Below are positions 25,092-28,592 of a DNA stretch of 35,097 nt, one piece after another. Position numbers and translations under genes: made by a program. The notes below the pieces were generated by a model. The model searched no databases. It had not been told where the DNA came from and worked only from the letters and a program-made list of their open reading frames with translations. The stretch's first letter is position 1; each line of letters begins with the position of its first letter. The DNA comes from a virus: the IMG/VR virus record IMGVR_UViG_3300010970_000021, positions 1-35,097 of that record; one strand, 5' to 3'.

Positions 25092-25233
25092 TATTTTCCT
25101 CATTCATTTCAAGTATTTCAGCTTGTTGGTCTTCATACAAATCATTAAAGGGTACAAAATGATTTTCTGAGCAACATTGGAATTTATCGCCTTTTGGTGT
25201 TGAGCAATAACAGCAATATTCTTCATTTGTCAT
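25081..25233 (-). CDS. 50-residue cysteine-rich (zinc-ribbon-like) protein
   Basis: A small protein starting TNEEYCCYCSTPKGDKFQCC, with two CC/CxxC-like pairs that could hold a zinc ion, followed by an acidic helix. It is coupled by ATGA to the ERF gene upstream and overlaps the SSB-like gene downstream. The function is unknown; a regulatory or partner role in recombination is possible. Confidence 0.72.
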   Translation of the reverse strand: MTNEEYCCYCSTPKGDKFQCCSENHFVPFNDLYEDQQAEILEMNEENNGL

Positions 25234-25847
25234 TTTGATTCCTTTGCTAATTCAGCTTGCTTCTTTATCGCACTGCGGACTTTGCTGTCCAGCTTAGACC
25301 ACAGCGCAATCTTTTCATCGCCATCCTCAATGCCGATATATTCCTCATAAGCACCATACATATCATCAGCGGCAACCTTTTGCATGATTGCATCTAGTAC
25401 GGCTTGCACAATTGCTTGGCGGTCTGGCTTTAACCCATCCCATGCGCCTTGTGTTGCTGATATTTTCGGAACAGGCTTTGATGCCGCATTTCCATCATCA
25501 TCTTCTGGCGCAATTCCACACGATGCCATCAGCGAATAACGCCTTGCATAAGTCAACGCACTTGCGTATCCCTGCGGGTCTTTCTTAACAGCGGGGAAAT
25601 GCACAATGCCGCATTCCAACATTTCGCCTGATTCGTGAACAAAAACAGTTTCCACCATTACGCCATCTGCACAGTCATAGTTCTTTTGCAACAGATATAT
25701 GCCATTAGCGTTTAAAGCGTCTATAACGGCTTCTACGCAAGCGGATAGGTCAGCATACCTACTGCGGAAATGCGGGTTGGTGCTGGTCTTTAAAGCTGGC
25801 TGGAATTGCTTTTGTGCTTTGACCAGCGCGGTTGCTATATTTTTCAT
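25230..25847 (-). CDS. erf: ERF-family single-strand annealing protein
   Basis: A 205-residue recombinase-type protein. The N-terminal core (LVKAQKQFQPALKTSTNPHF, then RSRYADLSACVEAVIDALNANG and ASALTYARRYSLMASCGIAPEDDD) is the classic ERF pattern. These proteins anneal complementary ssDNA during phage recombination and concatemer formation. The C-terminal third is helical and more variable. AAAGGATAATTC precedes the ATG. Neighbours include the SSB-tailed protein. Confidence 0.92.
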   Translation of the reverse strand: MKNIATALVKAQKQFQPALKTSTNPHFRSRYADLSACVEAVIDALNANGIYLLQKNYDCADGVMVETVFVHESGEMLECGIVHFPAVKKDPQGYASALTYARRYSLMASCGIAPEDDDGNAASKPVPKISATQGAWDGLKPDRQAIVQAVLDAIMQKVAADDMYGAYEEYIGIEDGDEKIALWSKLDSKVRSAIKKQAELAKESK

Positions 25848-27094: not shown

Positions 27095-28060
27095 TTAAGC
27101 AAGCAACATTTCTTCAGCTTGTGACTTCATGCGATTGCCATTGCCAAACCAAGCATTGTTCATGCGGGTATCAACATTGTGTCCACGTTCATGGTCAACG
27201 TATTGCGTGACAGCGTTCAGCAAGCCCCATTTAGTGCCGTAGACACCAAAATTATTAGCACCCATACCTGCGCCATCAAAGAGTTCTAAAACACGTTTAA
27301 ACCCGCGTGATTCTTTAAATGTATTGGTCTGGTGGTTGTAAGCGGCAGGAAATAGCGTGTTAACAAATTCATTGGCATATTGGCTTGAAACGCCTTGTCT
27401 TGCTAATTTGCGATATTTGTCCATCATGCCATCAAATCCGCTAACAACAAGCCCTAAACGATCACGCATTAACGATTGGTCAAACTGTGTGCCGTGAGTC
27501 AATACAACGCGACTTGGTGCGGTTTCTTGGTCTGCCATTGACAACGTGTTATTGCATACAACACGAATGCTGGTGAATTGACCGATAGTTGCGGCTGTAC
27601 CATCAAACGATGTGCTTAACAGCAAGTAACCGCGCACTGCATCATCTTGCAATACAACTGCTTCACGATTGACATTGGCTAATGCCCAAATGCGTTTGCC
27701 GCCTTTGATTGCACCCGCAACTTCTAAAGTAAATCCTGCTGATTGCACAAGGGTGTTAAAGAATTCAAGCACTTCGGCTGGCTGGTGAACTTTGTAACGG
27801 TCAGTAACTACGCCCAAAGGCGCGTTTGTGTCATTGCGATAAATGACGTTTTGATTAGGCATTTCAGAATAATTCTGTCCGTCCCATGTAAACATGATTG
27901 GCGACAATTTTGCTTCCCAATCTAGCCCTGCTTCTTTGCGCCACACGTCAATGGGTGCATCTTGAGTTAATTGTTGACCAAGACCATGCCAAGGTGTTGC
28001 GTTTGCGTAAGCAATTTCTGCTTTGCCTGTGATTGCGTTGTTTTCGATTAAGTGAGCCAT
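27095..28060 (-). CDS. DUF932 phage/plasmid-like protein
   Basis: A 321-residue protein with the DUF932 pattern: TPWHGLGQQLTQDAPIDVWR near the start, YRNDTNAPLGVVTDRYKVHQ, then PAEVLEFFNTLV, IRVVCNNTLSMA, a helical middle and NNFGVYGTKWGLLNAVTQYV, with DHERGH near the end. Such proteins are common in phages and plasmids and their biochemical role is not settled. AAAGGAATTGAAA precedes the ATG at 28060. The mRNA leader would start at the cleavage site of the hammerhead ribozyme just upstream. Confidence 0.9.
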   Translation of the reverse strand: MAHLIENNAITGKAEIAYANATPWHGLGQQLTQDAPIDVWRKEAGLDWEAKLSPIMFTWDGQNYSEMPNQNVIYRNDTNAPLGVVTDRYKVHQPAEVLEFFNTLVQSAGFTLEVAGAIKGGKRIWALANVNREAVVLQDDAVRGYLLLSTSFDGTAATIGQFTSIRVVCNNTLSMADQETAPSRVVLTHGTQFDQSLMRDRLGLVVSGFDGMMDKYRKLARQGVSSQYANEFVNTLFPAAYNHQTNTFKESRGFKRVLELFDGAGMGANNFGVYGTKWGLLNAVTQYVDHERGHNVDTRMNNAWFGNGNRMKSQAEEMLLA

Positions 28061-28083
28061 TTTCAATTCCTTTAAATGTTAAG

Positions 28084-28140
28084 TTACACAAGACCCTATC
28101 ACTAGGGTTTCGCCGATTAACGGCTCATCAGTTGTGTTAA
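28084..28140 (-). ncRNA. type I hammerhead ribozyme
   Basis: Read on the minus strand, all invariant elements are present in order: stem I 5' strand ACACAA (28137-28132), core CUGAUGA (28131-28125), stem II GCCG/CGGC with loop UUAAU (28124-28112), GAA (28111-28109), stem III ACCCUA/UAGGGU with loop GUGA (28108-28093), the cleavage base C (28092), and stem I 3' strand UUGUGU (28091-28086), with two more pairs beyond a bulge. Stem I is open-ended, so this is type I. Cleavage is expected between 28092 and 28091. The 5' strand overlaps the UAA stop of the upstream gene. No coding constraint explains the match. Confidence 0.92.
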
Positions 28141-28388
28141 GCGGCAAAATCCTCACCAGCATAAATGCGGTCTATATCGCGGTTGTATTTAGCAATTTGT
28201 GTGGGCGTGGCGGGTGTCATTACGCGAATGTCAATCCAATAACTTGGTGTTTGACCATTTGCTGTTTGATATGCAACAGCATAAACAGGCAATATTTCAT
28301 GTTTGGCAAGAATTTTGTAAACTTGTGCATCGGGGTTGTCGTTTAAAACAACGTGCATTCCAATGATGTTTGATTGCGTAATTTTCAT
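28137..28388 (-). CDS. 83-residue protein, first gene of the minus-strand operon
   Basis: The ATG at 28388 has AAAAGGAATTGAAA upstream. The product is compact (KITQSNIIGMHVVLNDNPDA, then KILAKHEILPVYAVAY and YWIDIRVMTPATPTQIAKYN) and looks like a small alpha/beta protein. The family is unknown. Its stop codon UAA lies inside stem I of the hammerhead ribozyme, so ribosomes finishing this gene could disturb ribozyme folding. Confidence 0.74.
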   Translation of the reverse strand: MKITQSNIIGMHVVLNDNPDAQVYKILAKHEILPVYAVAYQTANGQTPSYWIDIRVMTPATPTQIAKYNRDIDRIYAGEDFAA

Positions 28389-28592
28389 TTTCAATTCCTT
28401 TTAATTTGGTTAAGTTTTTATCAACTGTTTTTGTTGATGAACGAATCTTAACATCAAAACTTAACAAATTTTCACAGTTTTAAAAAATATTTTTATTAAT
28501 ACTTAACATTTAAAGTGTTAACTTTTCTGCAAACGCTTGTTTTCGGGCTTAACAATGCACAAATTTGTTAACTTACTGGTATCATGCTTAAC
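28389..28592. promoter_or_regulatory. divergent control region with repeated TTAAC/GTTAA sites
   Basis: The 204-bp gap between the divergent operons is AT-rich and holds GTTAAG at 28411 and CTTAAC or GTTAAC at 28447, 28460, 28502, 28517, 28548, 28567 and 28587. Two pairs form inverted repeats: TTAACA-N7-TGTTAA (28503-28521) and TTAACA-N11-TGTTAA (28549-28571). A separate dyad, ATCAAC-N7-GTTGAT, lies near 28422-28440. They are probable operators of the adjacent Cro-like protein. A minus-strand promoter must lie here too, but I could not pick one convincingly. Confidence 0.65.
28580..28585 (+). promoter_or_regulatory. extended -10 promoter of the Cro-like gene (leaderless)
   Basis: TGGTATCAT (28577-28585) is an extended -10 element with hexamer TATCAT. 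No good -35 is seen, but TTAAC sites overlap the region. The expected start point is about 28592-28593, which is the A of an in-frame ATG with no ribosome site. A leaderless transcript, as for lambda cI from its maintenance promoter, fits. Confidence 0.5.

Follow-up and report, generated by a model that had tools for sequence, protein, structure and literature searches.

Hammerhead ribozymes flanking phage-derived genes have been described before. According to Perreault et al. 2011 (PMC3088659), multiple hammerheads flank single prophage genes, and a processing of the transcript into gene-length mRNAs was proposed; the same paper reports the in vitro cleavage of three hammerhead clusters and the existence of three hammerheads around ardA in Agrobacterium. 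The role of prokaryotic hammerheads has, in turn, been called an open question (PMC6155905). These prophage clusters resemble the locus of the window (i.e., the whole stretch of 35,097 nucleotides analysed here) in that hammerheads flank single small genes in phage-derived operons; however, a stop/start layout, an exchange of promoter and hammerhead leaders and the clade of the window are not described in the portion of that paper available to us. In the haloviruses HF1/HF2, the 5' end of an early transcript was mapped within three nucleotides of the hammerhead cut (PMC3088659). This hammerhead lies, like that of the window, just upstream of an early gene, but it has a variant core, is located 13 nt before the start codon and belongs to an archaeal virus. 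The hammerhead of the cultured Pseudomonas phage PaP3 is there listed as phage intergenic (PMC3088659). Like the population to which the window belongs, it is of type I, the stop of orf67 abuts its stem I and an in-frame GTG is located 28 nt past the cut, whereas longer stem II and stem III loops and an imperfect stem III are features of its own; its score with model R1 is 31.8 bits. In the same phage (L243, 44012), orf66 probably starts at this GTG, which has a ribosome-binding sequence and is located 12 codons before the annotated ATG. A different solution is represented by the RNase III sites of the T7 early region, where the polycistronic early message is cut between genes and the resulting ends are protected by hairpins. 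The element of the window might be likened to these sites in giving cistrons defined ends; in T7 it is a host protein that cuts, while here the RNA would cut itself.

The record of the window is an uncultured viral contig of 35 kb harboring terminase and portal genes, and its hammerhead sits between co-directional phage genes, as the other members of the population do. From stem I to stem I, the type I hammerhead ribozyme spans positions 28086–28137 of the minus strand, where sequence, fold, covariance models and covariation all point to it. In the order of that strand, it comprises the 5' strand of stem I (ACACAA, 28137–28132), the core CUGAUGA (28131–28125), stem II (GCCG/CGGC, with the loop UUAAU, between CUGAUGA and GAA), the core GAA (28111–28109), stem III (ACCCUA/UAGGGU, with the loop GUGA), the C17 of a GUC triplet (28092) and the 3' strand of stem I (UUGUGU, 28091–28086), so that the predicted cut site is the C28092/U28091 junction. 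The features that define hammerheads, that is CUGANGA, GAA, the A15.1-U16.1 pair and H17, are all present in the element and invariant among its relatives. Both the sequence and the fold correspond to the type I topology, with an open stem I and a loop at the end of each of stems II and III; the minimum free energy fold is exactly the hammerhead structure (-18 kcal/mol, z -2.05). The claim of the earlier note, that a complete type I hammerhead with its core, stems, spacing and cleavage base C28092 exists on the minus strand, is confirmed.

Rfam covers this population poorly. At the gathering threshold of release 15, no hammerhead was found in the window, in L003, L006, L020, L023, L126 and L149, or in three phage records including that of PaP3, so that a sub-threshold search and a model of our own were needed. 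The comparison with Rfam models suggested in the earlier note gave a divided answer: the element matches Hammerhead_HH9 with 27.8 bits (E 6.9e-5), whereas a gathering score of 52 is required, and nothing in the window reaches that threshold. A search of the record of the window with RF02275 returned no match above the limit, the controls being unmatched too. A covariance model built on 59 diverse phage hammerheads, the sequence of the window being one of them, assigned to the element 70 bits (E 2.9e-24), the next-best match in the window having 13.4 bits; hammerheads of the DUF932 clade outside the 59 sequences scored 58–74 bits. The same model disclosed no second hammerhead in the window, which carries a single element only. 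Bcep176, named as carrying a core variant in PMC3088659, was not matched by model R1, which therefore misses variant hammerheads. As for DNA similarity to GenBank phages, none was found for the region, and that found for the element was at chance level.

Covariation in related phages, which had been proposed as a check, was found in all three stems together with an intact core. In the clade of the window (set A1, 27 distinct hammerheads), 100% of the cells are paired, every pair is standard and 9 of the 16 pairs are changed on both sides, against 30–46% of paired cells in slid controls; in a more diverse set (A2, 59 hammerheads), the corresponding values are 99.8%, 13/16 and, for the controls, 32–36%, and all these counts refer to viral sequences related by descent rather than to independent events. 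When a core pattern demanding no pairing was used, all three stems were present in 138 of 140 viral matches, which indicates that the pairing is not simply an artefact of the way sequences were picked. The same pattern retrieved 26 matches, 5 of them with stems, from 257 Gb of cellular genomes; this hammerhead is thus mainly a phage feature. The search with the DUF932 protein yielded 80 viral loci, 16 of which harbor a perfect-core hammerhead 29–34 nt before the DUF932 ATG, all 16 being among those at least 86% identical. Several close relatives lack it (as an example, L004, at 95% identity), so the DUF932 gene does not need the element, and on the DUF932 tree the presence of the hammerhead requires at least seven changes, three of which are forced by well-supported branches. 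In the isolated phage DSL-LC04, whose DUF932 protein is 45% identical, no hammerhead was found within 9 kb around the gene.

The bases flanking the ribozyme are conserved as well. In the earlier note, stem I continued with two pairs beyond a bulge; the six base pairs of stem I stand, while the putative bulge corresponds to a conserved A·A flank, formed by the A-A located 3' of stem I (28084–28085, minus strand) and by A28138 on its 5' side. According to the base counts of 226 hammerheads, an A occupies position -1 in 219/226, position +1 in 212/226 and position +2 in 184/226. In loop II, the first base is a U in 150 of 152 cases and the third an A in 136 of 152. The conservation of both the A flanks and the loop II bases suggests a tertiary contact of loop II with the region of stem I, of which the A-A flank is probably an element.

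The two genes adjoining the ribozyme, an 83-residue ORF and a DUF932 gene, are those originally indicated. The former (family A, 28137–28388, minus strand), which belongs to no known family, starts with the ATG at 28388 and is the first gene of a leftward early operon; L001 has a homologue of 86% identity, followed by the same junction. Its UAA stop (28139–28137) does overlap the ribozyme, as reported in the earlier note, but only the last A falls within the continuous 6-bp stem I. The latter (27095–28060, minus strand) belongs to PF06067 (E 7e-53; phrog_1221) and starts at 28060, that is 31 nt past the predicted cut, in agreement with the leader length previously proposed. The leader of the predicted 3' cleavage product (28061–28091, minus strand), which would begin with a 5'-OH, contains the ribosome-binding sequence AAAGGA. 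Farther down the DUF932 operon, an Erf-type ssDNA annealing protein is encoded (25230–25847, minus strand). The 83-residue gene is in turn preceded by a promoter-plus-hairpin leader (28389–28470, minus strand), composed of GTTAAGTTTT..TTAAGATTC, the hairpin ATCAAC..GTTGAT and then AACTTAACC..AAAAGGAATTGAAA, where the promoter was assigned by conservation and not by a sigma-70 scan; the AACTTAACC..AAAAGGAATTGAAA module is the same as that found in the hammerhead leader.

The analysis of 226 distinct hammerheads from uncultured phage contigs revealed one common layout, whose uniform geometry is in part due to selection, the viral set having been fetched with a fixed-spacing pattern. In 215/226, the interval from -60 to +30 contains the end of an upstream ORF no shorter than 40 codons. 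The stop shares bases with stem I or the core in 127/226 and abuts them (-7 to -3) in another 55, for a total of 182/226; hence, the stop-codon overlap first noticed at a single locus is real and general in this population. In 45/226, the stop codon is the U4-G5-A6 of the core itself. The next start codon is found at a median distance of 27 nt past the cut (IQR 25–31). Both gene neighbours are present in 199/226 (88%), against 18% at random positions, and an ORF ending at the hammerhead occurs on the same strand in 216/227 versus 68/227 on the other one.

In the lineage of the window, the small early genes are organized in arrays of the type [ORF-hammerhead]n-DUF932, in which eight ORF families are interchangeable. 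The window and L001 show the simplest arrangement, A-HH-DUF932; L003 and L009 harbor B-HH-C-HH-DUF932, L010 A-HH-D-HH-DUF932 and L020 E-HH-A-HH-A-HH-DUF932, and two or three hammerheads are present in L003, L006, L009, L010, L014, L020 and L023. The first ORF of an array is usually preceded by a conserved leader (GTTAAGTTTT..CATAATTC or TTAAGATTC, a hairpin and then AACTTAACC..AAAGGAATTGAAAATG), whereas the internal ones are preceded by a hammerhead to which a similar ribosome-binding module is attached. The 53 gene starts of this lineage comprise 23 with a hammerhead, 22 with the promoter leader, none with both and 8 with neither (Fisher p 1.4e-8), where the regular expression for the promoter was composed after the leaders had been inspected and at least two of the eight are misplaced start codons. 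Hammerhead and promoter leaders are thus mutually exclusive before these gene starts, and families A, C and D, as well as DUF932, are found with either leader. A generic sigma-70 scan was also tried as a classifier of leaders and was dropped as too weak, convincing promoters being detected in only 11/50 non-hammerhead leaders against 0/15. The literature searched yielded no earlier account of either the stop/start layout or the leader exchange, which is not a proof of absence; both appear to be new.

Some further features of these contigs can be mentioned. A short 5' hairpin (CCCUAGCAAUUUCGCAUAAGGGU and its variants) is conserved in the hammerhead-free DUF932 leaders of L016, L042, L044, L048, L054, L071 and L076; this recurrent leader element is located directly after a TACAAT/TATAAT box. 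An int-alpA RNA (RF02996) was found above the Rfam threshold on the opposite strand in L003 (3916–3983, minus) and L006 (3032–3097, minus). L126, L127, L156 and L173 harbor five to seven hammerheads per contig, some of them with large stem III insertions.

On the whole, the early transcript running leftward in this tailed phage is probably punctuated by the element, acting as a self-cleaving hammerhead of type I. The reading that best fits the data is that of an intercistronic processing element, whose cut would create both the 3' end of the upstream mRNA and the 5' end of the downstream one. Once transcribed, the RNA would fold and cut itself between C28092 and U28091; the message of the 83-residue gene would terminate with a 2',3'-cyclic phosphate behind the hairpins of stems II and III, while the message extending from DUF932 to Erf would begin with a 5'-OH, 31 nt ahead of its ATG. 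In this way, neighbouring cistrons might acquire defined 3' and 5' ends without a terminator, a promoter or a host RNase. We infer that the RNA is cleaved intracellularly and that both messages gain stability from their new ends. A 5'-OH and a hairpin-backed cyclic phosphate would be expected to resist RNase E and 3' exonucleases, respectively. Since the hammerhead occupies the position that in first genes is taken by the promoter and the 5' hairpin, it is most simply read as the maker of two message ends, the 5' end of the internal message and the 3' end of the preceding one. Covariation, the layout and the exchange of leaders give good support to the intercistronic processing claimed in the earlier note; as an idea it is not new, processing by clustered phage hammerheads having been published in 2011 (PMC3088659).

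The position of the stop codons might suggest something more, i.e., that translation gates the ribozyme: a ribosome terminating in or beside stem I would cover CUGAUGA, and the cut would take place only when such termination does not occur. The coverage of the core by a terminating ribosome rests on the size of the ribosome footprint. The stops located between 7 nt ahead of stem I and the interior of the core in the majority of the population, and those formed by U4-G5-A6 itself, are in keeping with this mechanism; on the other hand, compact phage genomes place stops beside any intergenic element, and the core always holds a UGA in one frame, so that the geometry alone is no proof of selection for gating. 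That a ribosome positioned on the overlapping stop gates the cut is plausible, even if we consider it rather unlikely. The same low expectation applies to its broader version, according to which the hammerhead would be a general self-cleaving punctuation mark with the stop codon within the ribozyme and the cut gated by the terminating ribosome, and gene plus hammerhead a plug-in cassette that may be placed anywhere in an operon, replacing promoter and 5' hairpin.

The shuffling of eight ORF families among hammerheads, the unrelated sequences found upstream of the element in close relatives and the stems that are more similar within than between contigs could also be read at the DNA level, with hammerheads persisting mainly as short repeats where small early-gene cassettes recombine; but compensatory changes keep the RNA pairing while breaking DNA identity, and the elements have a single orientation, on the same strand as the genes, which makes this role improbable. 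Even less credit can be given to the idea that gene-length RNAs are excised between two hammerheads and ligated, by RtcB or by the reverse hammerhead reaction, into circular messages. Neighbouring hammerheads in L126, L156 and L165 do share stem I and differ in stems II and III, so that the released ends could pair; the window, however, has one hammerhead only, stems I differ in many arrays, and Perreault et al. (PMC3088659), who searched for circular products, detected none. The sharing of stem I (33% within contigs versus 3% between contigs) was dropped as a support for circularisation, stems II and III being enriched within contigs too, so that shared descent explains much of it. Finally, a chance match or a decayed, functionless relic, for which the missing Rfam match at gathering level might speak, appears contradicted already by the E value of the phage model, by the perfect core in relatives and by the covariation of all stems, and is hardly credible.

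Intercistronic punctuation is thus the reading retained, and the swap of leaders before the same genes, together with the regular stop-cut-start spacing, makes it directly testable. If gating were also true, the cut would couple both downstream expression and the separation of messages to the translation of the upstream gene. More generally, a widespread population of phage hammerheads lies below the Rfam thresholds.
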